The notes beneath the pieces were generated by a model that worked only from the letters and a program-made list of their open reading frames with translations, did no database searches and was not told the DNA's origin. Positions 10,153 to 45,092 of a stretch of 64,000 nucleotides of DNA are shown here, in pieces. Each line of letters starts with the position of its first letter. The stretch's first letter is position 1. The DNA comes from Alphaproteobacteria bacterium (GTDB taxonomy: Bacteria > Pseudomonadota > Alphaproteobacteria > RF32 > CAG-239). The stretch spans positions 424,687 to 488,686 of the forward strand of contig JAQWBS010000001.1 in the NCBI GenBank assembly GCA_028706255.1, written 5' to 3'. The translations under genes and the position numbers were made by a program.

Positions 10153-10163
10153 ATAAATTCTCC

Positions 10164-11810: not shown

Positions 11811-11854
11811 AATACCTTGCTTATAAACAATTGTGTTTGATTAAAAAACACAAA

Positions 11855-14498: not shown

Positions 14499-14519
14499 GA
14501 TCTTAGCCCTTTATGCTGA

Positions 14520-18970: not shown

Positions 18971-19312
18971 ATGCAATTTCTAAAGAAAAATATTTGGACA
19001 TTGAGCTGTATGGTTCTATTTGCAGTTATGGCAATGGCTGGTGATGCTGCCGCAGTAGATGGTAACTCGTTGATGGAAACCGCTCAAACCAAAGCAAAAA
19101 GTGTTTTCGTAAGTGTGAAAACAATTATCTTCATCGTAGGTGGTTTCGGTCTTGTCGGTTTAGCTTTCTCAGCTGTTTTCGGTAAGATGAAATGGACTTG
19201 GTTTGCTTCACTTGCAGTTGGTCTTGCAATCTTGGCTGCTGCCGGTGCGATTGTTGAATATGCAACAGGTGACAGACGTCCAAACTTAGAAACTACTTTT
19301 GGTGATATCTAA
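18971..19312 (+). CDS. virB2: VirB2-like pilin subunit 1
   Basis: Signal peptide + two hydrophobic helices; VGGFGLVGLAFSAVFGKMKWTWFASLAVGLAILAAAGAIVEY. Confidence 0.7.
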   Translation: MQFLKKNIWTLSCMVLFAVMAMAGDAAAVDGNSLMETAQTKAKSVFVSVKTIIFIVGGFGLVGLAFSAVFGKMKWTWFASLAVGLAILAAAGAIVEYATGDRRPNLETTFGDI

Positions 19313-19352: not shown

Positions 19353-19913
19353 ATGAGAAATTTGATTAAACATAAATTATCATTACGCCCTCCTTTTGTT
19401 AAAAAAAATAATTTTTATACGAAGAAAAGTGGAGAGATGGGGATGTTGTACGTAAAATTAAAGAATATAACGAAGTTTTTTTTGTTGGCTGTTGTGTTTT
19501 CTTCAGTTTTATTTACAGCAAACACATGTTTGGCTGCCGAAGATACAGGCCTTTTTTCAAACCTATTAACAACTGGTTCAACAATTTTTACTGGAATGAG
19601 AGAGATTGTTTTTGCAGTTTCAGGTTTTGGAATTGTTGCTGTGGCAGTTGGTGCATTTTTTGGTAACTTGAACTGGAAATGGTTAAGTGCAATTATGATT
19701 GGTTTGGTGGTGATTTCGACCACAGCGGCAATCATTAATTATATGACAGAAGATGGTAACAACGGAAGTTTTCAACAAATTACTGATACGCTTGTTTATG
19801 GAAATGACTCTGGGATGTCTGCCTTGGATCAAAAGCATTGGAATGAAGCAAATGAAGCGGCAGCAAAGAAAGAAGACAGTAGTAGTAGAACAACGTCAAT
19901 TGTTGAAGAATGA
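19353..19913 (+). CDS. virB2: VirB2-like pilin subunit 2
   Basis: VSGFGIVAVAVGAFFGNLNWKWLSAIMIGLVVISTTAAIINY, same core; AAGGAGGGTGTTATG start context (alternative start 19437). Confidence 0.65.
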   Translation: MRNLIKHKLSLRPPFVKKNNFYTKKSGEMGMLYVKLKNITKFFLLAVVFSSVLFTANTCLAAEDTGLFSNLLTTGSTIFTGMREIVFAVSGFGIVAVAVGAFFGNLNWKWLSAIMIGLVVISTTAAIINYMTEDGNNGSFQQITDTLVYGNDSGMSALDQKHWNEANEAAAKKEDSSSRTTSIVEE

Positions 19914-19954: not shown

Positions 19955-22162
19955 ATGAAAAATTCAGTTAAGAAAATGTTGTCCATATTGATGATGGTGA
20001 TGTTTTGCTCTGTTTTTGGGAGTGGTATCGTTCTCGCAGAGGGTGTTACAGAATCAACTTTTAGCTATGGTTACTCACCTAAAGATTTTGAAAAAGTAAA
20101 AGCTAATGGTTGGGATGTTAGTGGATTTAAATTAGATGACAAAGGGTTCTATACAAAAAGCTTTGAAGGGTTAACAGAACAACAACAAGCTGAGTTTAAA
20201 CGTCAAGCTGAAGATGCAGTTATGAATGTAAATCCTGCAGCTTCAGGAAGTATGCCAGCAGTTACATCGTCAAATATTGAAATGGGCACGATGACATTTA
20301 GCTCTCCTGCAAGCTCATCTAATACGAGTTCAACGCCTGCCACAGCAAGTAGTTCAACCGCAGAAACAAATTCTGGAACAGTTGAAGAACAACCAGCAAG
20401 CAGTAATACAAGTAGCAGTGGGACAAGCACGGCTAGTGTTGGTGCTTCAGACAATTATAAAACCCCCGCTAATATTGGTAACGGAAAATGTGATGGAGCA
20501 GTAAATGTGTTTGAAACAGTTGCTTGTAAAATTGTTTTGACACTTGATGATTTGAGAATGGTTATTTATGTTCTCTCTGGTTTTGGGTTAATTGCATTTA
20601 CCTTTTCAGCAATCTTTGGAAAAATTAGTTGGAAACACTTGGCACAAATTGCTTTTGGCTTATTTTTAGTTTCCATGATGGCACCATTTATTGGATATTT
20701 TATTGGACCAGACAACACAAATAAAATGAAATATGGAGATTATTTGCCAGCAGGTTTTGCAATGGTCAGTGGAACAGACGGTGACGCATCAAAAGTGGAC
20801 TGTGTTGCAGGACAAGTTTGTCAAGATGATGAAGTGGCTACAAAGAAAAGTTGGTCATTATCAGACTTGAAGGGTTCTGTTCAGTCTGCAATTACAGCCG
20901 CTAAGGCTGTGCATAGTGGTGTGCAAGCTGTTAAATCAAATATTAAAACAACAAACGAACAAATTTCAAGAGTCACAAATGCAATTAAAAATATTGATGA
21001 CTTAGATAGTTTGATGACAGCAGCAAACACAGTTGCTGATGCAAAAAGTGTTATGGATAATAGCTCATATCAATTAATGAATAATTTGCAACATAATGTA
21101 GCAACAGCTGCAAATAGTGTTCAAGATGTTACATTAACAAATGAAGATAGAGCATTAAATGCTGAATTAAGAAGTCAAGGTGAGCAAACAAATGCACTGG
21201 CATTTAATATGCAGGGTGGTGTCTTGAAGGGTGATCATATGACCCAAGATAAAGATGGTAACTTCACAGATAAAGATGGAAATTATGTTGGTAAGTTTAA
21301 TGAACAAGGTGTATTTGTTAACGCAGCTGGACAAGAAATTAAAGGTGCTTCAGTAACAAAAGATGGTCTATTAAGTCTTAGCAATACAGTTATGACCTCT
21401 ATGGTTGCTGATGCAGAGGCAAGTCGTAATAAATCTGCTAAAACAGCAGCAGCAATTAGTTCTGCCACAAATGATGCGACTGTTATGAGAAATATTGCTG
21501 GCGGTGGAGTTCTTGGAACTGTTGCAGGGTTGGCAACCTTGGGAGCATCTGCAACAGGAAATGTTGTGGCATCAAATCAAGAAATCAAGGATAATGCTGC
21601 GGCTAAAGATAAGGCATTAAACCCACAGAATTATGCCGTAACAAATAGCAAGGTTCTAACGAGTACAACAGATAAGACAGGAAAAACCACAACTAAATAT
21701 GCTGATGGAACTGTTGAGGTGACAACTAAAGATGAATATAAGCGTGATGCGAGTGGAAACCTTGTGAAGGTTCTCGGTAAAAGCGTTGTAACAAAGTCGG
21801 ATGGTAGTGTGACGTCTACGAACACAGAAGGTGTTGTGACAACAACGCCAGCATCTTCATCAAGTTCTAGTGCTAGCTCAACGCCTACCACCGCAAGCTC
21901 AACGCCTGCCACAACATCAACAGGCACAATCAGTGCAGCAGATTTTGCTAAATATGGTATATCTGGAGCTCCTACTACAAGTAGTTCAGATGTAGATGCT
22001 GCGCTGAAAGCTCAGGGAGATGCTTCTCTTGCAAAAATGCAAGCTCAAGATGCTGTTCTTGCAGAGATTAAGAAACAAAATGGTGGACAAGTTGTTTTGA
22101 CACCAGAAAATATTGAAAAGATGAAAGCTGCTGGTTTTGATATGAGTCAATATGGCTTATAG
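19955..22162 (+). CDS. VirB2-like core embedded in a large low-complexity/coiled-coil protein
   Basis: LSGFGLIAFTFSAIFGKISWKHLAQIAFGLFLVSMMAPFIGYF at about 20570-20700; long Thr/Ser/Ala-rich extensions; GAGGAGGGTGTTATG start. Confidence 0.7.
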   Translation: MKNSVKKMLSILMMVMFCSVFGSGIVLAEGVTESTFSYGYSPKDFEKVKANGWDVSGFKLDDKGFYTKSFEGLTEQQQAEFKRQAEDAVMNVNPAASGSMPAVTSSNIEMGTMTFSSPASSSNTSSTPATASSSTAETNSGTVEEQPASSNTSSSGTSTASVGASDNYKTPANIGNGKCDGAVNVFETVACKIVLTLDDLRMVIYVLSGFGLIAFTFSAIFGKISWKHLAQIAFGLFLVSMMAPFIGYFIGPDNTNKMKYGDYLPAGFAMVSGTDGDASKVDCVAGQVCQDDEVATKKSWSLSDLKGSVQSAITAAKAVHSGVQAVKSNIKTTNEQISRVTNAIKNIDDLDSLMTAANTVADAKSVMDNSSYQLMNNLQHNVATAANSVQDVTLTNEDRALNAELRSQGEQTNALAFNMQGGVLKGDHMTQDKDGNFTDKDGNYVGKFNEQGVFVNAAGQEIKGASVTKDGLLSLSNTVMTSMVADAEASRNKSAKTAAAISSATNDATVMRNIAGGGVLGTVAGLATLGASATGNVVASNQEIKDNAAAKDKALNPQNYAVTNSKVLTSTTDKTGKTTTKYADGTVEVTTKDEYKRDASGNLVKVLGKSVVTKSDGSVTSTNTEGVVTTTPASSSSSSASSTPTTASSTPATTSTGTISAADFAKYGISGAPTTSSSDVDAALKAQGDASLAKMQAQDAVLAEIKKQNGGQVVLTPENIEKMKAAGFDMSQYGL

Positions 22163-22302: not shown

Positions 22303-22593
22303 ATGAGAGAACCGATATTAAAAGCCGTGGCTAGTCCTCCAAAAATTTTATGGGGACCTTTTTTACCAACGTTGCTTAACCTCGGATTACAGTTTCCTTT
22401 TATGTTTATCAGCATTGCAATGATAGACATAAACCCTCTTGTGTTTGTTGTGAGTATTGTTATTGTTCATGGGTTAATTGTTTTGCTCGGCACAAAAGAG
22501 CCTCACATTTCTAGTATGATGCAAGCTTTCGGTCAAACACGTATTGTTTCCAACAATTTGTATAAAGAAAAGGGGAATAAATTTGCGCCCTGA
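22303..22593 (+). CDS. virB3: VirB3-like inner-membrane protein
   Basis: Small two-TM protein directly upstream of VirB4: REPILKAVASPPKILWGPFLPTLLNLGLQFPFMF. Confidence 0.7.
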   Translation: MREPILKAVASPPKILWGPFLPTLLNLGLQFPFMFISIAMIDINPLVFVVSIVIVHGLIVLLGTKEPHISSMMQAFGQTRIVSNNLYKEKGNKFAP

Positions 22594-25015
22594 TATTGAT
22601 ATGTTCAGCCTCTTTGTTGAAGGCTTAAGTAATTTTGAAGTTTTGGTTGCTGTTATTGGATTTGTCTCTGCGGCGGCTTTTATTGGTTTGTGGGCAACAA
22701 AATTGGGTCGACTTATTTTGCCTCAACCGCATGAGTCCAAAGTTTCTGATTTTTTACCGTTTAATCGCTTAATGTCTGATGGTATGACAATTCGTTGTCG
22801 TGACGGCTCTTTTGCACGTGTGTTTAAAGTTGATGGAGCAGATTTATCTTTTGTGACGGAAGAAAAAGATATTTCTATGGCAGAGGCTCGTAAGTCTTGG
22901 ATAGACAATATGTCAGATATGCAAATTATTTGCCGAGTTTTAACACTCCGTGACCGCATAGAAATGGATGCAACCGTTGATGACTTTAACAATCCTCTGC
23001 TTGAACAAATTTCCAACACTTGGAACCATAATCTAGATAGAATATATAGCAATAGTCACTATGTTGTCCTTTCAGTGATTAACAGAACTGATGCTTTGAA
23101 AGATTTGAACTATGCCTCACAATCTTTACTCGCTATCTTAAATGATTATGGTGTGAAAACGTTATATGAGAGTGAAGATAGTCCTGCTGATTTGAGTCCT
23201 CTTTCTGTTTTTTCGAGATTATGCAGTCCGATTTCAAAACCAAAACCAAAGGTGAGGGGGGCACAGGAAGTTGCCCTAAATGAAATGCTAACAACCGATC
23301 ATATTCATTTTACGGGTGAACAGGGCGTTATTAAATTTTTCTCTGGCGACAGAGAGATGTATGCTATCTCAATGGGAATTAGAAGTTCAGGCGATTATAT
23401 GGATGAGAATATGATTATCTCATTGCTTTCAATCGACTGCGAACTTGTCTTACTCCATAATGTGAAACCAATCTTTAAGCCAAATGCCAGAATGTTGTTG
23501 ATGCAACAAAAAAGAATGGCTGAAGTGACAAGTTTTTCTGCTGATGTGGTTGACCAATATTCCGTTGCTTTAGCAACCATTGAAGATAGTGATGCGGACT
23601 ACCAATCTTTGAGTGAATATGCAATGACCATTATTCTCAAAGGACATAGTGATGAAGAAATTGAGTTTGCCGAAGGTGAAGTTCAGAGAATTTGTCGTTT
23701 GTTTGGGGTGACACCAGTTCGAGAAGGTTGGGTAACACAAGCGACTTTCTTTAATCAGTTCCCAACTTATGAATCATATCCAAGAACATATAGATATCTT
23801 TCCAGAGTTGTTGCGTCAGCCGTAACTTTTGATAAGCCTTCAGAAGGGTTTAGAAAAAGCGACTGGGGTCCAGGAGCAATTACGGTTTTTAGAACAGCAA
23901 ACGGCTCAGCATATAATTTTCAATTCCATGTCTCTTCAGAAGAAGGTGCAGTGGCTCACTGTTGTATCATTGGTCCAACTGGTCAAGGTAAAACAACTTT
24001 GCTAACTTTCTTGGCAGGACAAGCAATGCGTAATGGCGATTTGAAAGTTTTCTTCTTTGATCGTCACCGTGGTGCAGAAATTTTTACCCGTGCAGTTAAA
24101 GGTGCATATATTGGGTTTGATGGGGATGAAAAAAATGTGTCCCTTAATCCGTTTGATACTAAAAATTCACCAGTGAACAAAGCTTTCTTAAGACGCTGGT
24201 TAAAATCAATTACAATGGTTGATGACGCTTTAGCAGAAAAAGAAATTGCTCGTGCTGTTACCACAGCTTTTGACTATCTTCGTCCTGAAGAAAGAGTAAT
24301 GAAAAACTTATATAAGAGTTGTTTCTCGCCAACAGGGAATATGAGAAGAGAACTTTATCGTTGGATTAATCCTGATCAATATGGCAACATTTTTAATGCA
24401 GAAAATGATAGTCTCGACTTGAAAACAAAACGTTTTATGGCGTTTGATTTTACACATATTTTTGAGGATGAAACTCTTGCACCAGCTGTAATTAGCTATA
24501 TTATGCACCGAATTCAAAGTGAAACAGGCGAAACAGGCGTGCCATCATTGATTATGATTGATGAGACTGCGCCAATGTTGAAACACCCAATGTTTAGAGA
24601 CTATTTCATTATCGGACTTCAAGAGGGACGTAAAAAACGTCAGGCATATTTATGTGCTTTCCAACAGCCAAACATCATTGATAAATTAGGTGTTGGTGAA
24701 GTTATTCGTGGTCAATGTCAAACGGTTATCTTCTTTAGAAACCCACAAGCAACCATTGAAGACTATGCAAACTGGAATCTAACCGACCGAGAGCTTGATT
24801 TCATTTTTGGTAAAACATATCGTGAATTTCCATATGCCATTTTGCTTTCTCGTCAAGCAACAGGAGAGTCTGTTATCCTTGATGTGAATTTAGGGGGGCT
24901 TGGACCATATTTGAAGCTTTATAACTCTGGAAGAAAGAATGTTTTGTTGGTTGAAGAGCTAATAAAAGAATATGGTGAAGATAACTTTGTTACAAAATAT
25001 TTAAATATTGCGTAA
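22583..25015 (+). CDS. virB4: VirB4-family T4SS ATPase
   Basis: GPTGQGKTTLLTFLAGQ Walker A, LIMIDETAPML Walker B, FDRHRGAEIF, AYLCAFQQP; TTG start at 22583 after AAGGGG. Confidence 0.9.
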   Translation: MRPDIDMFSLFVEGLSNFEVLVAVIGFVSAAAFIGLWATKLGRLILPQPHESKVSDFLPFNRLMSDGMTIRCRDGSFARVFKVDGADLSFVTEEKDISMAEARKSWIDNMSDMQIICRVLTLRDRIEMDATVDDFNNPLLEQISNTWNHNLDRIYSNSHYVVLSVINRTDALKDLNYASQSLLAILNDYGVKTLYESEDSPADLSPLSVFSRLCSPISKPKPKVRGAQEVALNEMLTTDHIHFTGEQGVIKFFSGDREMYAISMGIRSSGDYMDENMIISLLSIDCELVLLHNVKPIFKPNARMLLMQQKRMAEVTSFSADVVDQYSVALATIEDSDADYQSLSEYAMTIILKGHSDEEIEFAEGEVQRICRLFGVTPVREGWVTQATFFNQFPTYESYPRTYRYLSRVVASAVTFDKPSEGFRKSDWGPGAITVFRTANGSAYNFQFHVSSEEGAVAHCCIIGPTGQGKTTLLTFLAGQAMRNGDLKVFFFDRHRGAEIFTRAVKGAYIGFDGDEKNVSLNPFDTKNSPVNKAFLRRWLKSITMVDDALAEKEIARAVTTAFDYLRPEERVMKNLYKSCFSPTGNMRRELYRWINPDQYGNIFNAENDSLDLKTKRFMAFDFTHIFEDETLAPAVISYIMHRIQSETGETGVPSLIMIDETAPMLKHPMFRDYFIIGLQEGRKKRQAYLCAFQQPNIIDKLGVGEVIRGQCQTVIFFRNPQATIEDYANWNLTDRELDFIFGKTYREFPYAILLSRQATGESVILDVNLGGLGPYLKLYNSGRKNVLLVEELIKEYGEDNFVTKYLNIA

Positions 25016-25091
25016 TTCAGATAATAGCCATTTATAAATAGATATTTATTTGATATTATTAAATATAGGCATTTGTTTCTCGGAGGTTGTG

Positions 25092-26765: not shown

Positions 26766-26775
26766 AGGAGGCGTT

Positions 26776-32731: not shown

Positions 32732-32743
32732 AGAGAAAATTTG

Positions 32744-33502
32744 ATGTCAGATGAGAAAAAAAACATAAGTGGTTCTAAGATATATTCCCTTCCTAAAAGC
32801 GAGAAGGAAGAAGCTATTTCTTTCATTAGTGGGTTTAGAGAAGTTCAGTCCTCAAAAATGACTTATTATGTTTGGTTATCCCGTTTTTTCATTCTCTTGG
32901 CAACTATTTCTTTGATGCTTTTTGTAAGCGGGTCTTTGGTCATCTTTCATCTTGCACCTAAAGTTCAGGTTGAGCCTTTTTTGGTGATTAATCAGGATGC
33001 TTCTCGAGAAATTGTCAGAAATGAGGCAATCAGCCCTAATATGCCTTCAAAAAATCAATTGATGGAAGTCTTTATAAAACAATATGTTTTGCTTAGAAAC
33101 ACAATCATCAGTGACGAAAGAGAAATGCAAACAAGATGGTATCCTGGGGGAATGGTGAATATGTATTCTTCAGACATCATTTTTGCAGATTTTACGGTTT
33201 ATCGTGAAAATGTTTGGCAACTCATTAGAAATATTGGCATGTCTCGTGAAGTTGAAATCATTTCTGCAAGCAAAGTAGGCGGTGAAAATAGCAACGTTTG
33301 GAAAGTTGATTTTAAAACTTACGACTTAACCAATGATCGTCGTGATCCAAGAAGTAAAGCTATCATTGTCACCACCAGATATTGGACGGCTTCCATAACG
33401 GCATATTTTATTCCTGAACGCTTTTTTATGGGCTTAAGACTACTTAATCCTCTTGGTTTTACTGTTTTAAGATATTCTCAAACAGAGGTTGAAATCTTAT
33501 AG
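32744..33502 (+). CDS. virB8: VirB8-like protein, copy 1
   Basis: N-terminal TM then LAPKVQVEPFLVINQD...VFIKQYVLLRNTI...RYWTASITAYF...NPLGFTV. Confidence 0.8.
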   Translation: MSDEKKNISGSKIYSLPKSEKEEAISFISGFREVQSSKMTYYVWLSRFFILLATISLMLFVSGSLVIFHLAPKVQVEPFLVINQDASREIVRNEAISPNMPSKNQLMEVFIKQYVLLRNTIISDEREMQTRWYPGGMVNMYSSDIIFADFTVYRENVWQLIRNIGMSREVEIISASKVGGENSNVWKVDFKTYDLTNDRRDPRSKAIIVTTRYWTASITAYFIPERFFMGLRLLNPLGFTVLRYSQTEVEIL

Positions 33503-33699
33503 CTTTTTCTTCCAAGACTTCTTTCGTCTAATTTACTTTTAATTAATTCTTTATATTTTATAATAAACTAGAGATAGTTTATTAAGCAGGCTATGTTTTT
33601 AGGTTAATAAATTCATATTTTACAGTGTAAAATTAAAGTTTTCTTTGGAAATATTATAATTTTATATTATGCTGTTACATATTTAGATTGGGGGACGAA

Positions 33700-33882
33700 A
33701 TGAAATATGTGAGTTTGTTGTTGGTGTTGATGCTTTCTGCATGCAGTATTTTTGGTTCATATTATGAAGCAGAGCCAATTGGCGTTGGTAAGGGTGTGGA
33801 CGAATTGAAGCTCTCACCTTGTGCTTGTATGCACCTTGATTTACCTAAGGATTTGCCAGACTGGTTTGTCGACACAATTTAG
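33700..33882 (+). CDS. virB7: Small VirB7-like lipoprotein
   Basis: MKYVSLLLVLMLSACSIFGSYYEAEPIGVGKGVDELKLSPCACMHLDLPKDLPDWF: lipobox LSAC, position between virB8 copies. Confidence 0.6.
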   Translation: MKYVSLLLVLMLSACSIFGSYYEAEPIGVGKGVDELKLSPCACMHLDLPKDLPDWFVDTI

Positions 33883-33895
33883 TTAGGGAAAGAGA

Positions 33896-34621
33896 ATGGC
33901 TGAAAAACTAAACAGTGATAATGTGAATAGAAAGCTTCTGGGGGGCGGTTCTTTTGCGAGAACGTCTAATCTTGGGCAAGAAACAATCATTGTCAATGTT
34001 GCCGAAAAAAGATATTTATGGACAGCAAGAGCGTTTGCCATCATCACGGCAATAAGCCTGTGCTGTAATTTTGTTTTGCTTTTAGCAATTAGCCAGATTG
34101 TGCCACTTTACCGTGTTGAGCCTTTTCTTTTGACATTCCAAAACAAGGAAGAACAAGTTTATAATATCCGTCTTATTGGATCAACACTTGAAGATGAAAA
34201 GGCAATTACAGAAGTTTTTGTTAGGGAATATGTTTTGTTACGGTCAACTTTTGACACAGATATCCCTGAAATGGAAGCTAGATGGTCTGAGGGTGGTCCT
34301 TTGCAAGAAACGTCTGCTCCACTTGTTTATTCTGCATTTATTAAGGATACAGCAACGAAGGCTTTGCAAATTATTAAAACAAAAGGTTTGAAAAGAGATA
34401 TTCGTATTATCACAGTGAATGAATTGAGCCGTGGATTGTGGCAAGTTGAATATGAAAGTCAAGATTTATACCCATCCTCTGTGAAGCCTGAAGTGGGTTA
34501 TTGGACAGCCTCCTTAGAAGTTAGATATCGTAGCAAAACTGTCAAATATAGTGACAGAATGAAAAATCCAGTTGGGTTTACTGTTGAAAAATATTCATTA
34601 ACGAATAATAAAATTAATTAG
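33896..34621 (+). CDS. virB8: VirB8-like protein, copy 2
   Basis: VPLYRVEPFLLTFQN...VFVREYVLLRSTF...VGYWTASLEVRYRS...NPVGFTV. Confidence 0.8.
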   Translation: MAEKLNSDNVNRKLLGGGSFARTSNLGQETIIVNVAEKRYLWTARAFAIITAISLCCNFVLLLAISQIVPLYRVEPFLLTFQNKEEQVYNIRLIGSTLEDEKAITEVFVREYVLLRSTFDTDIPEMEARWSEGGPLQETSAPLVYSAFIKDTATKALQIIKTKGLKRDIRIITVNELSRGLWQVEYESQDLYPSSVKPEVGYWTASLEVRYRSKTVKYSDRMKNPVGFTVEKYSLTNNKIN

Positions 34622-34630
34622 GGTCGTAAA

Positions 34631-36277
34631 ATGTTAAAGTTAATCAAAATATTCACATGTCTGTTCCTTCTTATGAGTGTTAGCAAAAATGTTAATGCCC
34701 AAGCAACCATGAACAGCATGGATCAAAATGCCGATCAGAGTCAGGGAAACTATATGCCTATGGACATGGGATATGCTGGCTTTAACTCGCTGGGAATGAC
34801 TCAAAGTGCTTGGCTTGATCCTTTGCAAAACCTTGGTGAAGGGCAATCAAGACCGGCTTATTCAAAATATTATTGGTCACCAGATTTGGTCTTGCCTGTA
34901 AGACTGAGAGAAGGTATGTTGACTTTGCTTAACTTTCCTGATTGGGAATTAATTGAAGATATTTATATTGGTGATAATTCTACGTTTGACGGGCAAATTA
35001 GTGGCCCAAATACGCTTCTTCTTTATCCTCGAAAAGGCGCGCAAGTTGGCGTTGACACAAACATTATCGTTTTTGGACGTTCTGGTAATCGATATGTATT
35101 TTATGCAAAAAGCGAAGGCGTGAATACGGAAAGATTAACCAACTCTATCATTGATATTGATGTGATTAGCGAAGATGCTGGTGGCAATGGTGGTGGAAGT
35201 TTGGGTGGCTCTTCCATGGGAAAGGGCGGCGGCTCTGGCCGAGCCGGAGGTAAAGGCAATTCAGGAAAATCTTTAGATTCAACTTACACAAAAAGATTTC
35301 AAAAAGCAGATTGGATTAAACATATCCCGCTCGACCCAGAAAATATGAGATTTGATATTGAAGTTTATATTCCAAACCCAGATGATGTTGTTATCGCACC
35401 TGAAAGAGTTTGGAGAGATGATATTTTCACTTATATTGATTTGGGTGAGAAATCTCTTAATATGACGCAACGCCCTATTGTGACGTTGATTGTTGAACGA
35501 ATTGAAGTGCCAGTTGGATTTAGAGCAGCTGGTCCGAACAATCGTCTGATTGTTGTTGAAGCCATTGGGGATATGGTTTTGCGTAATGGAAAGAGAATTA
35601 TTTGTTTGAAAATGAGAAAGTCAGATTCACAAGGAATGCCGACTTTTGCAAGCGATCTTGAAAATCAAGAATGGAGTGTTCCTGCGCCATTACCAGATTT
35701 TTCACAAAATGGAAATGAAAATGGAGCTATGGGCTCAGGTGCAAATGGTATGGTTAATGCTACGGGAACAGATTTCGTTCCAGCTGTTGGCAGTCAGGGT
35801 GCTGCTGGTGGAAGAGGCATAAGATATAATGGTGGAGCAGGCTTCGGCAATGACTATGGCAATATTTCTAATGCGAGTGCTTTTGACAGTACAGATTATT
35901 CTAAGATGCAACGTATTAGTGGAGGCGGACAATCACTCCCTCAGGGCGTAAATGGAAAACAAGCTGGTGCAAGCTCAAATATGGGTGGTGGTTATGGAGC
36001 TGGATTTATGGATTCAGGATCAAGCATTTCCATTGAACTTGGCACAGATGCAAATGTGAATAATCTGGAGATTTTGTGGGGAACACTTTCCTCTAAATAT
36101 TCAGATGTTTTGTCTGTTTATGAACCTTTCTATTCCGTTGATGCTCCGGCGGATGGTCAAGGTAAAGAACTGTTCCACTTGAGAGTTGGACCTGTAAATA
36201 GTCTTAATGAAGGGGACACTGTCTGTGGAAAACTGGGAAGAAACGGAGTCTTTTGTAGCGTAGTAAGAACACAATGA
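34631..36277 (+). CDS. virB9: VirB9-like outer-membrane-complex protein with C-terminal SPOR-like domain
   Basis: LVLPVRLREGMLTLLNFPDWELIEDIYIGD, NIIVFGRSGNRYVFYAKSEG; C-term SISIELGTDANVNNLEILWGTLSSKYSDVL...LFHLRVGPVNSLNEGDTVCGKLGRNGVFCSVV. Confidence 0.75.
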   Translation: MLKLIKIFTCLFLLMSVSKNVNAQATMNSMDQNADQSQGNYMPMDMGYAGFNSLGMTQSAWLDPLQNLGEGQSRPAYSKYYWSPDLVLPVRLREGMLTLLNFPDWELIEDIYIGDNSTFDGQISGPNTLLLYPRKGAQVGVDTNIIVFGRSGNRYVFYAKSEGVNTERLTNSIIDIDVISEDAGGNGGGSLGGSSMGKGGGSGRAGGKGNSGKSLDSTYTKRFQKADWIKHIPLDPENMRFDIEVYIPNPDDVVIAPERVWRDDIFTYIDLGEKSLNMTQRPIVTLIVERIEVPVGFRAAGPNNRLIVVEAIGDMVLRNGKRIICLKMRKSDSQGMPTFASDLENQEWSVPAPLPDFSQNGNENGAMGSGANGMVNATGTDFVPAVGSQGAAGGRGIRYNGGAGFGNDYGNISNASAFDSTDYSKMQRISGGGQSLPQGVNGKQAGASSNMGGGYGAGFMDSGSSISIELGTDANVNNLEILWGTLSSKYSDVLSVYEPFYSVDAPADGQGKELFHLRVGPVNSLNEGDTVCGKLGRNGVFCSVVRTQ

Positions 36278-39200
36278 GTAAAGAAAATTTAACACATTCC
36301 GAAAACTATGTCAGAAAAACCAACCGCATTATTCTTGCGGTTGGTGTGATTTCTTTCTTGCTGTTTTTGTTTGGTGTTTATCTCTTAGTAAATAGTAAAA
36401 ATACTGGCAATGAATATGAAGAACCAGTCTTTACGGATAATGATGATGTGTTGAATATGGCTGACAATGTAAATCCTTTGCAGAGTGCAATTGAATTTGG
36501 AGAGCCTGAAGATAAAGTTATTCCTTTGACATTAACCCCTAATCCAGTACAAATGGGGCAAGTTGTTTTGGGGACTGAGGCAAAGAATGTTTTAACCCTT
36601 GGTACTAATGGAAAAAATTCGATTAAAATTTTAGCGATTAATTTGGCAGAACCTCCTGCAGATGGATTTGAGTTTAACCATACGTGTAATGGGAAAACAT
36701 TACGAGGCGAGGAGACTTGCCATATTACAATGAGTTGGGTTCCTGTCGTTGCGGGAAATGTTCAAAATAATTTCCTTATCACTTGGCATGAATCTAATCT
36801 TTCTCAAAGTAATGCAAAAGCAGAAAAAGTGCCAGTAGAAGGCAGTGCAATCAGAAAAGAAGATTGCAATTACTGTGAAACACCTTCTGGTGTTGCTGAG
36901 GGGGATAAAAAGGCTCAAAAATTAAGAGCGGTTATTGGTCCCGATGGAAATATCATTGGATATAGCGATGAAGAAGGTTTTATAAGAGATGATAAAGGCA
37001 ATATCATTGGGCGAATAAATGAAGCGGGCATGGCAATAGATTCTGAAGGCAATGTCATTGGGGTTGCTGAAAACCGCCGCGTCGTTTTAGATGAATTTGG
37101 AAATGTAATTGGCTATGTTAACCCAGACGGAACGGTTGTTGATCTAAATGGGAACGTCATTGGGCGTGTTTTGCCAGATGGTACGGTTGTTGATTTAAAC
37201 GGCAATGTCATCGGGAAAGCTTCTGATGCAGGTTATGTTTATGATAAAGATGGCAACATTATCGGACGTGTTTTGCCAGATGGCACAGTTGTTGATATGA
37301 ACGGAAATGTTATTGGACGTTTGAATGAAAAAGGTGAAGTTGTTGATGCTGATGGAAACATTATTGGTTATATAACGAAGCCGGGGCGTGTTGCAATTGA
37401 CAAAGACGGAAAAGTTCTTGGGGTCGTTATGCCAAATGGAGCGGTGGTAGATGCGGAAGGAAGAGTTGTCGGCTATTTAGATGAAAATGGCAATATCGTT
37501 GATGAACAAAAAATTGGAAAAATAGGACCAACACGCCGTCTTGCCTATGATAAAGACGGAAACGTAATTGGCTATATTGATGAGAATGGCAATGTTGTTG
37601 ATTTCAACGGAAATATCATCGGTAGAATGTTAGAAGACGGCACTTTGGTTGACTTAGAAGGCAATGTCATTGGAAAAGCTGGGGATTATGTTACTTTGGC
37701 GCTTGATGAAAATGGCAATGTGATTGGTTACGTTGGAAAAGACGGAAAAGTCTATGATAAAGATGGCAATGTGATTGGTTATGTTGGTGAAAATGGCGAA
37801 ATCTTCAGTAATATTCGACGTAAAGTTGGGTCAATTGTCGACGTGGATTTAATTCCAATTGGTCCTGATGGTAGTGTTTTAGGTGCTATAAAAAATAATG
37901 GCGAAGTGGTTGATACTGCAGGACAAAAAATTGGTAGAATTCTAGCAAGTGGACTTGTCAAAGATATGTCTGGCGCTAAAATTGTTGGTAAATTAGTCCG
38001 TGGTGGTTTGGTTGTTGGATATGGCTGTAAAAATGTTGGCTATTTGGAAAAAGATGGCAGAATTAGAAAAGAGAATAAAGAAACCACACATAAAGTTGCG
38101 GCGAATGGAATTATCCACGACGGAAATGGCAATTATATTGGCGAAGTTGTCAAATTAGGACGTGTTTTTGATAATAATTGTAATTTGCTTGGTGAAGTTG
38201 GCAACGATGGCATCGTGAGAAATACGAACGCAGGATATATTGGCTGTGTTAACCCTGACGGAACAGTCTTAAATGATAGGGGAGATGTTGTTGGCGGTGT
38301 GCTTCGAGAAGGAATTGCACTCTCTTATGACGGTAACTATCTCGGCAAAATTAGCCAAGACGGCATTGTGATGTCTGACGCTAAATTACCAATTGGCTGT
38401 GTGAGTGTTTATGGCGATGTTTTAGGTCGTAATGGAAGCTATATTGGTCGTGTTTTGGAAGAAAAATATGCTTTTGACTTAGACGGAAATTTCATCGGCG
38501 AAGTTGACGAAGATGGCAGAATTGATATCTCAGGGATTGGTCATGCGAAAATTTTTGCCAATAATTCTTTGGCAGATAATAATAATGATATTATTGGTCA
38601 GGTGATGCACGAAAAAACAATTATCATGGATTCAACAGGCATCAAAGGAAACCTATTTCCAGATGGCAATATATATAGTTACAGCGGAGCTTCGTTGGGA
38701 AAAATTCATGGGGATGGGCTAAGTTTTTATAATACTCAGATTGGCGTGCCATTGAAAAGAGGTCAAGTTGTTGACTTTAGCGGGAAGCTTATCGGTAAAA
38801 CAAATTATGACGGACGTGTGATTAATCGATTTGGAGAATATATCGGAGATATTGATGCTAAAGGCAGATTAATAACTTCAAAAGGCGAATATCGTGGAGA
38901 TGTCTTAAAACGTGGCGTAGCGATAGGATATGACGGTTCTTATATTGGTTATGTTCTAGCAGACGGACAAGTCATTAACTTAGACGGGAATAAAGAAGGA
39001 AGCGTGACTTCAGATGATAAGGTCTTAAGCAATCGAGGTGAAATTATTGGAGAAGTCATTCAGGAAGATATTTTAACAGATATCTGGGGAAATTATAAAG
39101 GCAGAATGAACTCTTTAGGCGATGTGATTGATTTGAAGAATGATATCATTACAGCAATTCTCCCAGGGGCTTCAACAGATAAAGGCTTGAGCATTTTGAA

Positions 39201-39690
39201 AAGAGGGGTTGTTGGTGATTTTGGCGGTAACATCATTGGCTATGTTTTGCCTGACGGTAGTGTTGCAGACACCAATAATGTTAAAATAGGACGTGTTTTG
39301 CCAGATGGAAATGTTATCAGTAATTCAGGAAAACTTGCTGGTGAACTTCTTGATGGAGATATCGTCATTGATAATGCCGATAAATTTGCGGGTTATGTCA
39401 GATTTGATGGAAAAGTTGTTGGACTTGATGGAAAAGCTGTTGGAAGTTTAATTTCTGGAGGTTTAGCAGTTGGAAATAATGAAACGATATTAGGTAAGGT
39501 TTATAAAATCGGTGCAACGATTTTAGGAAATGATGGAAGATATATCGGACGCCTTGCTGCAAATGGCACAGTTGTCGATATGAAAGGTAAAAACATTGGA
39601 TATCTAAAAAACAATGGTTCATTTGTTGATTTAGATAAAAAAGTTTCAGGTTATGCCTTGCAAGAAGTGGCTAAAAATCGGAGGAATTAA
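36274..39690 (+). CDS. Inner-membrane-anchored giant 17-residue-repeat protein (VirB10 N-terminal-like partner)
   Basis: N-terminal TM; Ig/HYDIN-like domain (LTLTPNPVQMGQVVLGTEAKNVLTL...CHITMSW); long repeat array GNVIGRVLPDGTVVDLN. Confidence 0.75.
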   Translation: MSKENLTHSENYVRKTNRIILAVGVISFLLFLFGVYLLVNSKNTGNEYEEPVFTDNDDVLNMADNVNPLQSAIEFGEPEDKVIPLTLTPNPVQMGQVVLGTEAKNVLTLGTNGKNSIKILAINLAEPPADGFEFNHTCNGKTLRGEETCHITMSWVPVVAGNVQNNFLITWHESNLSQSNAKAEKVPVEGSAIRKEDCNYCETPSGVAEGDKKAQKLRAVIGPDGNIIGYSDEEGFIRDDKGNIIGRINEAGMAIDSEGNVIGVAENRRVVLDEFGNVIGYVNPDGTVVDLNGNVIGRVLPDGTVVDLNGNVIGKASDAGYVYDKDGNIIGRVLPDGTVVDMNGNVIGRLNEKGEVVDADGNIIGYITKPGRVAIDKDGKVLGVVMPNGAVVDAEGRVVGYLDENGNIVDEQKIGKIGPTRRLAYDKDGNVIGYIDENGNVVDFNGNIIGRMLEDGTLVDLEGNVIGKAGDYVTLALDENGNVIGYVGKDGKVYDKDGNVIGYVGENGEIFSNIRRKVGSIVDVDLIPIGPDGSVLGAIKNNGEVVDTAGQKIGRILASGLVKDMSGAKIVGKLVRGGLVVGYGCKNVGYLEKDGRIRKENKETTHKVAANGIIHDGNGNYIGEVVKLGRVFDNNCNLLGEVGNDGIVRNTNAGYIGCVNPDGTVLNDRGDVVGGVLREGIALSYDGNYLGKISQDGIVMSDAKLPIGCVSVYGDVLGRNGSYIGRVLEEKYAFDLDGNFIGEVDEDGRIDISGIGHAKIFANNSLADNNNDIIGQVMHEKTIIMDSTGIKGNLFPDGNIYSYSGASLGKIHGDGLSFYNTQIGVPLKRGQVVDFSGKLIGKTNYDGRVINRFGEYIGDIDAKGRLITSKGEYRGDVLKRGVAIGYDGSYIGYVLADGQVINLDGNKEGSVTSDDKVLSNRGEIIGEVIQEDILTDIWGNYKGRMNSLGDVIDLKNDIITAILPGASTDKGLSILKRGVVGDFGGNIIGYVLPDGSVADTNNVKIGRVLPDGNVISNSGKLAGELLDGDIVIDNADKFAGYVRFDGKVVGLDGKAVGSLISGGLAVGNNETILGKVYKIGATILGNDGRYIGRLAANGTVVDMKGKNIGYLKNNGSFVDLDKKVSGYALQEVAKNRRN
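37099..37404 (+). repeat. In-phase 51-bp (17 aa) degenerate tandem repeat block, most regular part of a longer array
   Basis: Unit starts (GGN-AAY) at 37099, 37150, 37201, 37252, 37303, 37354: exact 51-bp spacing. Confidence 0.95.
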
Positions 39691-39692
39691 CG

Positions 39693-42600
39693 TTGAAAAA
39701 GCACTCTAAAACATTAACTCGTCTTTCACATAAATTCACTATGTTTTTATGTGTATTGACAGGTGTCTTTGTTCTTTCGACAAAAGGTCTTGCCGCTCAA
39801 GAAATTACGGCAATAGATTTTAATGGTGACTTAATCGGTAAGGTCATTCCAGATGGTAAGGTTGTGAATTTTGACAATCAATTAATTGGAAATATCAATG
39901 CAGATAGTTTGATTGTTGGGTTTAAAGGTGAGCTTTTAGGTGGAATTATCCCACAAGGAATTGCAATTGGCAACGATAATAAGTTTTTAGGAAAAGTGAG
40001 CAATGATGGAACAGTTCGTCTTGCTTCTGGTAAAATTATTGGTAAAGTTTTGCCAAATGGACTAGTTGTCGACGAAATCTACGATGTCATTGGGGCTGTT
40101 CTTTTCCCAGGGTTGATTTATTCAAATTATGGTGAAACAGTGGGACGCTTAACTGGTGATGGTAGTTACACAAATTTGCAGGGGCAAAAGATTGGTTTTG
40201 TTTCTTCAGATGGCTATGCTTATCGCCAAGTTGGCAATGAATATGTTTTAGATGGCAAGCTCATCTCTTCAAAAATGGTCATTTCAGATCAAGGAAAGTT
40301 TATTGGAAGTTTGGCTCCAGGGGGAGATGTAACAGACTTTGAGGCAAATATTATTGGTCGAATCAGAGCCAATGGTTATGTTTATGATGCCAATAATCGC
40401 GTCATAGGTCGTGTTGTTTCAACAGGATTTGCGGTTGGGAATGACGGAAAATATCTAGGATTCATCACTTATAACGGTGAAGTCATTTTGAATGAAAAAG
40501 TGGTTGGTAGATTGCTTGCGAATGATGATATTGTCAATGTTGAAGGCAGTGTCGTTGGTAAAAGAATTGATTTTTCAGCAACGTTCTCAAATGAAAAAGG
40601 AAAATATATTGGTCGTCTTATCCCAAATGGTGAAATTGTTAAAGCCAAAGAAGTTGTTGGAAAATTAGGGGTTGGCAATGCTGTTTTCAACGAAGAAAGA
40701 ATTTTAGGACATGAAGTTAAAACGGGACCTGTGTTTGATTATAAGGGAAGTCTTATTGGTCATGCGCTAAGAAATTCTGCGGTAATCTCCGTTTTAGGAA
40801 CACCTTTGGGAAATATGAAAGCCGATATGGCATATGATAAAAGTGGAAGATTTATTGGAAAAATATCTCAGACAAAACTTGTTATGGGGCTAGATAATAC
40901 CATTCAAGGATTGACAAATATTGATATGACCATTGGACGAGAAGAAGAAAAGAAAAGCGTTTCTCCTTTCGGATATGTCTTTTCAGCAGAAGGTGTTTTA
41001 GAAGGATTTGCAGTTAAACCTGCGCCAATATATAATTTATATGGCATTAAAGCAGCAGATTTGTCATTGAATGGACAGATTGAGAATCAGGGAAATGCCT
41101 ACACAGGCAAGATAACAACTTCTGGCATTCATATTGACGAAAGAAACCGTGTGCTTGGTGCTTTTATAAACCCTAAGCTTGTCGTGGATAAGGCAGAAGA
41201 ATCTTTATATCTCTCAGCATCAAATTTGGTTTATAATCTGAAGCAAAAAATTGTTGGAAAAATTACACCAAACAATAATATCATTGAAGCCTCTGCTGAA
41301 GGCTCAACAAACTTAATGCCAAAAATTGGACAGGCTTATCCTCACTCAATTGTATTGAATGTGACAGGAAATCTTGTTGGCTATGGTTCTGGAGAAAGAG
41401 TAAAAAATTCGGCAGATTCAAATATTGGAAAACTTATCGAAAGAGGCATTGCCATTGATAATAAGGGTGCTTTCTTGGGTGAACTTGCATCATATGAAAC
41501 TGTTGTTGATAATGCTTGCGCATTTATCGGAATTGTGACACCTCGTGGTGAAGTTAAAAATTATCGAGATACATATATTGGTAGACCACTTTTAAATGGA
41601 GAGGTCATTTCAGATAGTGGTGCAGTATTAGGACATGTGGTTAAGGCACTTCCAGTTATCGGAAATGCTGGAAATGTACTTGGTATTACGTCTGTTGATG
41701 GAAAAGTGATTAATTATAATAATGATAATTTGGGTTGTGTTGATGTTTATGGACGTTTGATGAATGTTGACGGATCAATTGTTGGGAGAACAGTTATTAA
41801 TGCGCCTGCAATTGATTTTGAAGGTGTAATCATCGGGCAAACAAACATAACTGGTGCAGTCATTAGTGATGAGAGTAAAACACTGGGTTATATGCAAGTT
41901 GATGAAAGCGTAAACTCTGGCACAGGAATTCCTCTCGGAACACTTTTTAAATATAAATATGCCTTTGATAATGGCAACAAGTTTATCGGAATTGTCAATG
42001 AAGAAGCAAGAGTGATTGGCTTTGACAAAAAAGAAATTGGATATGTTGATTTTTACGGCTATGTTAATAGCGGACGTGAAAAAATAGGATATGCTTTATA
42101 TGATTTATATGTTCATGGAGAAGAAGATTCACTCCAAGGATATATTGCAGCAGATGGAAATGTTTTAGCTTTTAGCGGGGCGAACATTGGGAAGTTAGAT
42201 AAAGGCTTTGTGCTAGATAAATCAGGAAAAGTTATTGCTAGAGGAAGTAGAGATTATAATATTCGTAATGATAAATATTATGTTTTAGGATACCTCAATT
42301 TTAATGGTGACGTCATTGCCAATAGTGGGGAACTCGCTGGAAAAATTGAGCTTAAAGAAGGCAATATTTACAATGCTGAAGAGCAATATATTGCGAAGGC
42401 TTATCCATTACAATATTACAACAACGTTGCCACTGCTAAGCCTGTTTATGGTGAAAATGGTGAAATTATTGGTTATGCCAAAGATGACGGTAGTGTGGTT
42501 GATGAAGATGGAAAACTCATTGCTTTGCTCAATGATGATGGGTTTGCAATTTCTGCAAATGGCGACATCATCGGCGGAACAGGAACAGATTGGTTCACAA

Positions 42601-44111
42601 AATCAACTCAAAGAAAAGTCAAAAAATATGATGTGCCAGAAGTTGGGGTGAGCGGGGAAATGACGGAACAGGCTCGCAAGTCTATGTCAATTGCTTTAAC
42701 AACAGATGGCGAATATTTGGGAAGAATTGGAGATGACGGACAAGTTACCGACGATTCTGGTAAAGTATTAGGCAGAAAAATGCCTGATGGATTGATTATA
42801 GATGATGGTGGTAATCTTATTGGTCTTGAAGAAACGGCTCAACCAGATACAAACGGAATTTTCATTCCAACAGGAACTTTTGGACAAGGTTCAGCTTATG
42901 GCGTTGGGGCTGGGGCAGGTGGAAACTTAGGCCCTGGAGGCGGTTATGGTCCTGGGGAAAGATATGACCCACAAAGATCAGCTGCTTTGAATGAAGCACA
43001 AAATCAACGTCGTCAAAATATTTCAGTCGGAAAAATCAGCACCAGTGTTAAAACGTCAAATTTTGATGGAATGCAAAAAAACTGGGATGAACAAGGCATT
43101 CAAAAAGCAATTTCTTCTTGGCGAGTTGACCTGAGTGAGATGATTCTTTCAGACAAACCAATTCCAGCGGTCATTGCGCGTTCAATTGATAGTAATAATC
43201 CAACACCAGTAACGGCATATGTTGAAAGAAACGTCTATTCAGAAGTTGGAAGAAATATTATCATTCCTGCTGGAAGTCGTGTTATGGGAACGCTTGGTGG
43301 CTTAACAGCAACCACAGAAGATACCTCTCAATCAGCTAAGGTTTCAATTACGTGGGAAAGACTCATTCGTCCAGATGGCTCAATTTTCGTGTTCCAAGGG
43401 CTTACGGGAGATGCGCAAGGTCGTGGGGGTGCTTTGGGATATTTGGATCAACAGTTATTCAAAAAATATACGCTTCCTGTGATGACAACAATGCTTAGTT
43501 CTGGGTTGACTTATATGATGGCAACGGATGATTCTGGTTCGAATGTTGAAAGTTCAAGACAGCAGGCAGCAAATGATGCTCGACAAAACTTTGAAAATTC
43601 TATGAATTCAATTTTCCAACAAATTTTGCAAGATAAAACGAATATTAGACCTTTAACTTATGTCCCTGCTGGTACAAGAATTATCATTTATCCTAATGTG
43701 GACTTATGGTTAAGAACCCCTGAAAGAGATGAGTTGGAAGCTAATGCTCAATTGAATAAGAAAGATGTCTTGATCGATGACCAACAGAAAGTTCGTGAGA
43801 GTAGGGAAGTTGAGTTAAGAAAGAAAATTAACCCATCAGGAAACACGGGTGGTGGTGGCGCCGACAGTTCATCTGTTGTTTATGCACCTGACCAAGATGG
43901 TGTTTCTGAAGCAACAGGTGACGCTCTGCTGATTTCTGATAGAAAGATTGTTGAAGATAGAAAGAAAATGGATGCAAGCAAAAAAGCAGCTAAGCAAAAC
44001 ACAAGTGTTGGCACACCGCCTCCACCTCCGCCATCTTCAGCATCGTCAGCCAGTAGCTCAAGCAAAGAAACAACGACGACGACAACAAATAGTATTCCGC
44101 AGTTGTTCTAG
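39693..44111 (+). CDS. virB10: Giant repeat protein with C-terminal VirB10/TrbI domain
   Basis: TTG start after GGAGG; signal peptide; same repeats; C-term SDKPIPAVIARSIDSNNPTPVTAYVERNVYSEVGRNIIIPAGSRVMGTLGG...NIRPLTYVPAGTRIIIYPNVDLWLR. Confidence 0.85.
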   Translation: MKKHSKTLTRLSHKFTMFLCVLTGVFVLSTKGLAAQEITAIDFNGDLIGKVIPDGKVVNFDNQLIGNINADSLIVGFKGELLGGIIPQGIAIGNDNKFLGKVSNDGTVRLASGKIIGKVLPNGLVVDEIYDVIGAVLFPGLIYSNYGETVGRLTGDGSYTNLQGQKIGFVSSDGYAYRQVGNEYVLDGKLISSKMVISDQGKFIGSLAPGGDVTDFEANIIGRIRANGYVYDANNRVIGRVVSTGFAVGNDGKYLGFITYNGEVILNEKVVGRLLANDDIVNVEGSVVGKRIDFSATFSNEKGKYIGRLIPNGEIVKAKEVVGKLGVGNAVFNEERILGHEVKTGPVFDYKGSLIGHALRNSAVISVLGTPLGNMKADMAYDKSGRFIGKISQTKLVMGLDNTIQGLTNIDMTIGREEEKKSVSPFGYVFSAEGVLEGFAVKPAPIYNLYGIKAADLSLNGQIENQGNAYTGKITTSGIHIDERNRVLGAFINPKLVVDKAEESLYLSASNLVYNLKQKIVGKITPNNNIIEASAEGSTNLMPKIGQAYPHSIVLNVTGNLVGYGSGERVKNSADSNIGKLIERGIAIDNKGAFLGELASYETVVDNACAFIGIVTPRGEVKNYRDTYIGRPLLNGEVISDSGAVLGHVVKALPVIGNAGNVLGITSVDGKVINYNNDNLGCVDVYGRLMNVDGSIVGRTVINAPAIDFEGVIIGQTNITGAVISDESKTLGYMQVDESVNSGTGIPLGTLFKYKYAFDNGNKFIGIVNEEARVIGFDKKEIGYVDFYGYVNSGREKIGYALYDLYVHGEEDSLQGYIAADGNVLAFSGANIGKLDKGFVLDKSGKVIARGSRDYNIRNDKYYVLGYLNFNGDVIANSGELAGKIELKEGNIYNAEEQYIAKAYPLQYYNNVATAKPVYGENGEIIGYAKDDGSVVDEDGKLIALLNDDGFAISANGDIIGGTGTDWFTKSTQRKVKKYDVPEVGVSGEMTEQARKSMSIALTTDGEYLGRIGDDGQVTDDSGKVLGRKMPDGLIIDDGGNLIGLEETAQPDTNGIFIPTGTFGQGSAYGVGAGAGGNLGPGGGYGPGERYDPQRSAALNEAQNQRRQNISVGKISTSVKTSNFDGMQKNWDEQGIQKAISSWRVDLSEMILSDKPIPAVIARSIDSNNPTPVTAYVERNVYSEVGRNIIIPAGSRVMGTLGGLTATTEDTSQSAKVSITWERLIRPDGSIFVFQGLTGDAQGRGGALGYLDQQLFKKYTLPVMTTMLSSGLTYMMATDDSGSNVESSRQQAANDARQNFENSMNSIFQQILQDKTNIRPLTYVPAGTRIIIYPNVDLWLRTPERDELEANAQLNKKDVLIDDQQKVRESREVELRKKINPSGNTGGGGADSSSVVYAPDQDGVSEATGDALLISDRKIVEDRKKMDASKKAAKQNTSVGTPPPPPPSSASSASSSSKETTTTTTNSIPQLF

Positions 44112-44123
44112 GGGAGAGGGAAA

Positions 44124-45092
44124 ATGTCTTTTAAGGTGCTAGAATCAGTTTTGCGACCGCTTGCTTATTGGTATAACCAAGATAATATCGAGGAAATTGC
44201 AATTAATCGCTCGAAGCAAGTTTGGTTGCGTCTGCGTGGGAAGAGGGCATATCCATGGGTGATGTATAAAGATGAAAAATTGACCAAAGAATATTTGACT
44301 GATTTGCTTTATCTGATTGCAAACACTTATGAAATTCCTTTTGACCCCGTTGAAGGGACACCGTTGGTTTATGCTGCAATTCCAGGGGAACATCGTTTTT
44401 CAGGAATCGCAGGAAAGAACGTGATGTATGATGAAGAAGACCTTACGGGTGGCGTTGCTTTAGCAATTCGTGTGCATAGTGATGATGTGGCATTTGGGCT
44501 GCAAGATTATGGCTTAAAACAAGGTCAGGGATTGCATAATATCAATCCAATTAAAGATTTGAAAGACCCTGAAGACCCATATGAGCGATTGCTTCTTAGT
44601 ATTAAGAGAGGCGACCACATTTTGGTTTCAGGTGCAACCTCGACAGGTAAGACGACGTTCTTGAATAATCTTTTGAAAATTTTAGATATCAATAAACGAA
44701 TTATCACCATTGAGGATACGAGAGAGTTGATTGTGCCACACAAGAACAGAGTTCACGTCGTGCTTTCCCGTACGGAACAAACCAACCAACTAAATTATAG
44801 TAAAATCATTGACTTGGTTGTGCGTTTCACACCAGATGCCATCATCGGCGGTGAAATTTCAACAGGAAACGCAGGCGCACTTTGGGAGCTTATGGGTTCA
44901 GGTCATGATAACTGCTTAGCAACAATCCACGCAGAAAGCTCAGAAGCCGCTTATAAAGCGTTTGTCGACAGAATTTTACACACCTATCCGACCATTGATA
45001 GAACGAAAACAATGGCAGAAATGCGTCAGAAACTTCGAGTGGTTCAAATCAATCGTGATGGTAACCTCAGAGCAGTTACAGAAGTGACCTAA
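44124..45092 (+). CDS. virB11: VirB11-family T4SS ATPase
   Basis: LVSGATSTGKTTFLNNLL, ITIEDTRELIVPHKNRVHV, DAIIGGEIS, LATIHAESSEAAY. Confidence 0.95.
   Translation: MSFKVLESVLRPLAYWYNQDNIEEIAINRSKQVWLRLRGKRAYPWVMYKDEKLTKEYLTDLLYLIANTYEIPFDPVEGTPLVYAAIPGEHRFSGIAGKNVMYDEEDLTGGVALAIRVHSDDVAFGLQDYGLKQGQGLHNINPIKDLKDPEDPYERLLLSIKRGDHILVSGATSTGKTTFLNNLLKILDINKRIITIEDTRELIVPHKNRVHVVLSRTEQTNQLNYSKIIDLVVRFTPDAIIGGEISTGNAGALWELMGSGHDNCLATIHAESSEAAYKAFVDRILHTYPTIDRTKTMAEMRQKLRVVQINRDGNLRAVTEVT

Follow-up and report, generated by a model that had tools for sequence, protein, structure and literature searches.

A VirB2-family protein with long, variable extensions in a Rickettsiales-like type IV secretion operon of Alphaproteobacteria

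Results

The type IV secretion operon and its neighborhood

The window, that is, the whole stretch of 64,000 nucleotides of alphaproteobacterial DNA analyzed here, contains a type IV secretion system (T4SS) operon in which three genes encoding VirB2-type proteins, virB2a, virB2b, and virB2c, are followed by virB3 and virB4. The main genes, with the matches on which their assignments are based, are listed below.

18971..19312, + strand: VirB2a, a short constant pilin (Pfam TrbC, E = 1.2e-9, passing the cut-off; length constant in relatives)
19362..19913, + strand: VirB2b, the second pilin (Pfam TrbC, E = 5.5e-6)
19955..22162, + strand: VirB2c, 735 aa (ribosome-binding site AGGAGG before the ATG at 19955)
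22303..22593, + strand: VirB3 (Pfam E = 0.016, below the cut-off; conserved position)
22544..25015, + strand: VirB4 ATPase (TIGR00929, E = 6.8e-112, below its cut-off; CagE_TrbE_VirB, E = 2.8e-11)
32741..36277, + strand: two VirB8 proteins and VirB9 (CagX) (domain matches)
36274..39690, + strand: 1138-aa β-flower-type repeat protein, the stalk (Bflower_2, E = 6.5e-67; fold of a part)
39693..44111, + strand: VirB10 with the same repeats (Bflower_2, E = 4.4e-50; TrbI, E = 4.7e-35)
44124..45092, + strand: VirB11-type ATPase (T2SSE, E = 6e-21)

Between virB4 and virB8 (25050-32731) the operon encodes four consecutive long, fast-evolving proteins with signal-peptide-like starts, whose median identity among relatives is 25-28%. 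The 1138-aa protein and VirB10 (36274-44111) are largely made of 17-aa β-flower-type repeats; the former has an N-terminal hydrophobic segment, whereas the latter starts with a signal peptide and ends with a TrbI domain, an arrangement that would fit a VirB10 stalk divided over two proteins. VirB6-like proteins of 433, 888, and 1016 aa and a 601-aa neighbor are encoded on the minus strand at 51775-60653, the 1016-aa protein containing an additional peptidase M23 domain, and VirD4-type genes are found elsewhere in the same genome. Directly upstream of the virB2 genes, a divergent type IVb pilus cluster (9028-16812, - strand) encodes TcpQ, a secretin, PilO, a T2SSE ATPase, and T2SSF; the place of its ATPase is kept in most related loci.

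By gene content and layout, the system resembles the rvh T4SS of Anaplasma and other Rickettsiales (PMC2653234, PMC3556328). Several VirB2 proteins, several VirB6 proteins with long extensions, and two VirB8 proteins are present, and, as in rvh, the exposed parts are variable and the energy parts are conserved. VirB4 and VirB9, which are duplicated in the rvh type, were each seen once in the operon. However, the giant component of rvh is VirB6-4, its VirB2 proteins being small with two short hypervariable regions, whereas here the giant is VirB2; further, the stalk proteins of the window system bear β-flower-type repeats.

VirB2c contains a VirB2-type core within two long extensions

Translation of 19955-22162 yields 735 aa. 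The ATG at 19955 is most plausibly the start, since a strong Shine-Dalgarno sequence (GCGAGGAGGGTGTTATG) lies upstream of it and the predicted signal peptide begins there. An earlier note on this DNA described a 750-aa protein; the open reading frame (ORF) is real, but that length counts from an alternative in-frame ATG at 19910, which overlaps the 3' end of the upstream gene. Residues are numbered by the 735-aa form throughout. The protein can be divided as follows.

19955..20038, + strand: signal peptide, residues 1-28, predicted (hydrophobic stretch 3-33; AlphaFold helix 2-21)
20054..20224, + strand: small N-terminal domain, residues 34-90, with the first copy of a 20-aa motif, SPKDFEKVKANGWDVSGFKL (pLDDT 74-95)
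20237..20479, + strand: Ser/Thr-rich linker, residues 95-175, predicted to be disordered (sequence; pLDDT below 50)
20504..20704, + strand: VirB2/TrbC core, residues 184-250, two hydrophobic helices and a basic loop (TrbC match, paralogs, orthologs, hydropathy, AlphaFold)
20858..21175, + strand: helical bundle, residues 302-407, conserved in near orthologs (phmmer E = 7.8e-15 to locus L061; AlphaFold helices)
21242..21349, + strand: stalk-like β module (DKDGN), residues 430-465 (similarity to stalk repeats; AlphaFold)
21491..21574, + strand: glycine-rich hydrophobic stretch, residues 513-540 (hydropathy; similar Gly-rich stretches in near orthologs)
21653..21823, + strand: second β-rich segment with xDG turns, residues 567-623 (AlphaFold)
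21983..22159, + strand: C-terminal helices, residues 677-735, ending with the second copy of the 20-aa motif (pLDDT 88-96)

The core sequence GFGLIAFTFSAIFGKISWKHLAQIAFGLFLV occupies residues 209-239, and residues 184-240 match the Pfam TrbC/VirB2 family with E = 4.8e-4, which is below the curated cut-off. When VirB2c was used as a query in its own genome, the two upstream proteins were matched with E = 4.4e-9 and 8.7e-9, and in a tree of the cores the c clade is joined with a and b. Since these own-genome paralogs match both TrbC and VirB2c, the assignment of the VirB2c core to the VirB2 family is firm at the level of sequence despite the sub-cut-off Pfam match. Thus the earlier claim that the core is common to the two small upstream proteins is borne out. 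The core also aligns with VirB2/TrbC models, the opposite of an outcome that the earlier note had named as refuting its reading, and the idea of a specialized (minor) pilin in which a VirB2-type core is embedded in a large protein gains support.

Like the VirB2/TrbC pilins (PF04956), VirB2c combines an alignable two-helix hydrophobic core, a conserved glycine with a basic loop, and a signal peptide, and its gene adjoins the downstream virB3-virB4 genes of a T4SS. Unlike these pilins, which typically have about 100-150 aa before processing, it is extended at both ends, and its orthologs have up to 2058 aa. Because of this size, we consider VirB2c a variant and not a standard member of the family.

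For the extensions, we used only the local secondary structure and not the domain arrangement, because the quality of the AlphaFold model is moderate overall (mean pLDDT 62.5, pTM 0.31). The two copies of the 20-aa end motif (20075-20134, and TPENIEKMKAAGFDMSQYGL at 22100-22159) are more alike than in any of 5000 shuffles; the motif was seen in VirB2c of the window alone, with no copy in relatives among the fetched ORFs. The small N-terminal domain likewise had no relative among the fetched ORFs, and DGS/DGT-rich tails are present also in VirB2c of loci L061 and L026. No adhesin or receptor-binding domain and no toxin, enzyme, or immunity-like domain was recognized in VirB2c by Pfam, NCBIfam, PHROGs, and fold searches. 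Matches of the extension to PDB sequences and folds (generic coiled coils, colicins, tape measures) were discarded, as none had a fold E-value of 0.001 or below.

The third VirB2 paralog varies extremely in length

A contig scan identified 75 loci, nearly all of them in metagenome-assembled genomes labeled as alphaproteobacterial or proteobacterial, many from animal guts; one is labeled Azospirillum sp. CAG:239. The locus from the same genus as the window (L070, contig JAISVX010000001.1) has a public title of Lactobacillaceae, and the operon clearly belongs to this alphaproteobacterial family; the genome title is apparently wrong.

The gene order virB2a-virB2b-virB2c-virB3-virB4 is kept in most of the 75 loci. 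In the core tree of 26 loci, the a, b, and c sequences each fall on one side of a branch, although the tree is built on only 83 columns, its branches are long, and the a group is weakly supported. Among 59 complete triplets, VirB2a has 110-182 aa (about 115 aa as a rule), VirB2b 109-310 aa, and VirB2c 128-2058 aa (median 669), a 16-fold range around the conserved two-helix core. The coefficient of variation of length is 0.68 for VirB2c, compared with 0.06 for VirB10 and 0.05 for the repeat protein (few complete copies). The median coverage of the best local alignment is 11% for VirB2c versus 98-100% for VirB4, VirB8b, VirB9, and VirB11. The lengths of VirB2b and VirB2c correlate in the 59 triplets (rho = 0.66, not corrected for phylogeny).

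The basic loop is present in all 72 VirB2c orthologs, and paired cysteines beside the core are found before it in 20 and after it in 31 of the 72. The shortest VirB2c proteins (128-186 aa) have almost no extension. Given the range of lengths and the low alignment coverage against a retained core and gene order, comparison of these sequences indicates that innovation is rapid in the third pilin, whose core and position in the operon are nevertheless maintained.

The DKDGN module is related to the stalk repeats and lineage-specific

Within the module, the string DKDGNFTDKDGNYVGKFNEQGVFVNAAGQEIKGA starts at residue 432 (DNA position 21248). In a search of 5369 ORFs with the 46-aa module, the top 15 single matches were all stalk repeats, the best being QDKDGNFTDKDGNYVGKFNEQGVFVNAAGQEI against KDKDGNLVDKDGNSVGKVLADGTIVDAEGNVI (20.9 bits, E = 1e-4). 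In the controls, 60 shuffled modules reached at most 10.1 bits, the reversed module 7.0, and the best non-stalk protein 6.5. With the whole VirB2c as a query, the stalk match scored 13.6 bits, the null maximum over 225 shuffled queries being 7.5. These shuffles rule out mere Gly/Asp composition, and the resemblance to the repeats of the 1138- and 1472-aa proteins suggested in the earlier note holds beyond it. An HMM of diverse 34-aa repeats scored VirB2c at 8.1 bits, a value reached by none of 3000 protein shuffles; over all ORFs the match has E = 9.8 and is not significant, and we rejected this HMM as a detector, its information content being too low.

Structural prediction agrees with the sequence similarity. 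In the single-sequence AlphaFold model of a part of the 1138-aa protein, a 3-residue strand, a 5-residue turn, a 5-residue strand, and a 4-residue turn follow one another in a regular register, and in the module short strands and turns are predicted (pLDDT about 87-89) at places matching this register. At the DNA level, the local score of the module against the stalk gene is 41, versus 23-25 in control regions, but was reached in 6 of 300 codon-matched randomizations; this excess is at most suggestive of a recent duplication from the stalk gene.

The module shares short strands and [DNEQ]xxG turns with the stalk and with β-flower domains (PF21784-PF21786; PMC10584680). However, β-flowers are closed by 4-6 hairpins, whereas the module comprises only some two units of 17 aa and, unlike the stalk proteins, matches none of the β-flower Pfam families. 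Searched alone against Pfam, it matches only DUF3659 (PF12396; E = 0.0021, below its cut-off).

The module is absent from the same-genus ortholog (L070, 417 aa) and from the nearest family orthologs (L061-L069, L071), which have helices at its place, while the two repeat proteins of the stalk were found in those family members, the same genus included, whose region was fetched. In a more distant clade, other D-x-x-G-N hairpins occupy the position of the module, so that this position seems to be one at which a hypervariable domain tolerates insertions. An HMM of 13 such VirB2c hairpins finds residues 406-486 of the window protein (16.7 bits; 0 of 3000 shuffles), although the flank and the hairpin scored only 0.8 and 5.2 bits when taken singly, a result that is supportive, but not proof, of the module being an ancestral feature of VirB2c retained in place.

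Solitary copies and independent extensions of VirB2

In one genome (G023), the operon keeps only virB2a (L143), and five further genes, three of them virB2b-like and enlarged and two of the virB2c type, are solitary among unrelated genes (L023, L024, L144, L145). One solitary virB2c is also found in locus L068.

Extended VirB2-type proteins were observed in other alphaproteobacterial families as well. For instance, a solitary 570-aa protein (L158, 972-2681, + strand) combines N-terminal DADGN β repeats with a TrbC core, and a 442-aa protein (L160, 2500-3825, - strand) a collagen-like Gly/Pro-rich stretch with a TrbC core; neither lies within a T4SS operon. VirB2 concatemers contain two (L163, 2450-3103, - strand) and three (L161, 1092-2084, + strand) TrbC cores per chain, and in one of these loci it is once more the third virB2 gene ahead of virB3-virB4 that is modified. 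Extension of VirB2 probably arose more than once.

Discussion

VirB2 is an inner-membrane protein that the VirB4/VirB11 machine feeds into the growing pilus at VirB6, and VirB5 forms the tip (PMC9259494, PMC12857230). In Anaplasma and Bartonella, the VirB2 copies differ from one another, which has been suggested to diversify the exposed surface (PMC3556328, PMC12857230). The system described here is similar to the Bartonella Trw T4SS, with its amplified VirB2 and VirB5 variants, in having several VirB2-type copies, which for Trw have been suggested to diversify the surface of the pilus in host binding; unlike Trw, where copies of small pilins vary, the variation here lies in the extensions of one dedicated paralog (PMC12857230).

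We propose, with a probability of roughly 0.55, that VirB2c is a specialized VirB2-family subunit of a Rickettsiales-like T4SS that displays a fast-evolving exported domain. The signal peptide would direct export of the N-terminus through the inner membrane, and the core helices would be inserted so that the short basic loop lies inside and both long extensions are periplasmic. The core could then be recruited in a pilin-like manner by the assembly machine of VirB3, VirB4, VirB6, and VirB11, and VirB2c would be built in small numbers into the filament, or into the first layer of it, together with the constant VirB2a. The extensions would be shown as a flexible exported domain composed of the linker, the helical bundle, and the β segments. 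Comparison of orthologs shows that modules are rapidly gained and lost in this domain, probably owing to contact with a variable partner, for example the surface of target cells, phages, or the immunity of the host. The DKDGN module would be one such cassette, built of the same β-hairpin unit as the stalk and lineage-specific among the sequences sampled, and assembly would have no need of it. We count in support of this model the homology of the core, the kept gene order, the three paralog clades, the variation of VirB2c in length and sequence beside conserved partner proteins, the basic loop and the paired cysteines of the orthologs, the retention of solitary virB2c genes, the separate extensions of VirB2 elsewhere, and the published recruitment of pilins at VirB6 and variation of VirB2 copies in other systems.

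On the sequence evidence, VirB2c is best read as a minor pilin or a pilus-base subunit, its export, incorporation into the pilus, and function being predictions. A role at the base or outside the filament is possible because the classical pilus lattice may lack room for such extensions, and, as the shortest VirB2c proteins have almost none, display would not be needed in every lineage. For the family as a whole in gut Alphaproteobacteria, we suggest more tentatively, at somewhat less than even odds, that a dedicated VirB2 paralog serves as an interchangeable display pilin, its conserved assembly core bearing ectodomains that are particular to each lineage and range from 0 to about 2000 residues, with the b and c genes able to duplicate and leave the operon, giving variable target recognition or antigenic variation.

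The main rival places VirB2c permanently in the envelope, with the core in the inner membrane and the extension serving the assembly platform as a scaffold or gate in the periplasm. The coiled-coil-like helical bundle, the correlated lengths of VirB2b and VirB2c, and the presence of several other long and variable signal-peptide proteins in the operon are all consistent with such a role. However, a periplasmic spacer should follow the depth of the envelope and the stalk, and stalk length hardly varies compared with the 16-fold range of VirB2c, which makes this explanation unlikely. It is still less probable that, as the earlier note had suggested, VirB2c is a tip, base, or cap pilin docking on the stalk through the stalk-like module; a hairpin added to an open repeat end would be one way to do so. 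The significant similarity to the stalk, the common strand and turn register, and the occurrence, in a different family, of a VirB2-type protein with DADGN repeats speak for docking, but the latter protein sits outside a T4SS operon, and the module comprises only about two repeat units. Moreover, if docking on the conserved stalk needed the module, both should be retained together, whereas the same-genus and nearest orthologs have the stalk and lack the module; thus the proposal finds no support here, and the module is probably not a docking device, or at least not generally. Finally, VirB2c could be a secreted or processed substrate that enters the machine by its VirB2-like hairpin and whose variable part acts elsewhere. 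The modular variable domain, the solitary copies away from the operon, and the glycine-rich hydrophobic stretch fit a substrate, yet the domain searches returned nothing toxin-, enzyme-, or immunity-like and the position as the third virB2 gene is conserved, so that we regard this as very improbable.

The core family and the T4SS layout are already known, and the length-hypervariable group of VirB2 orthologs is new as far as the literature searched, which left out most subscription papers: neither a description of a giant or fused VirB2 forming an ortholog group of 128-2058 aa nor a T4SS study on the gut alphaproteobacterial metagenome-assembled genomes bearing this system was found in it.

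T4SS pilins are regarded as tiny, tightly packed subunits. A pilin tolerating up to about 2,000 extra residues would imply that a minor subunit decorates the filament or its base, or else that the pilin fold has been adopted for a different purpose, and either would change models of filament assembly. Since the extensions range from almost none to about 2,000 aa between related species, the T4SS of these bacteria probably displays a fast-changing part, which could set which cells are contacted. VirB2c may be considered a specific candidate for target recognition by this machine.
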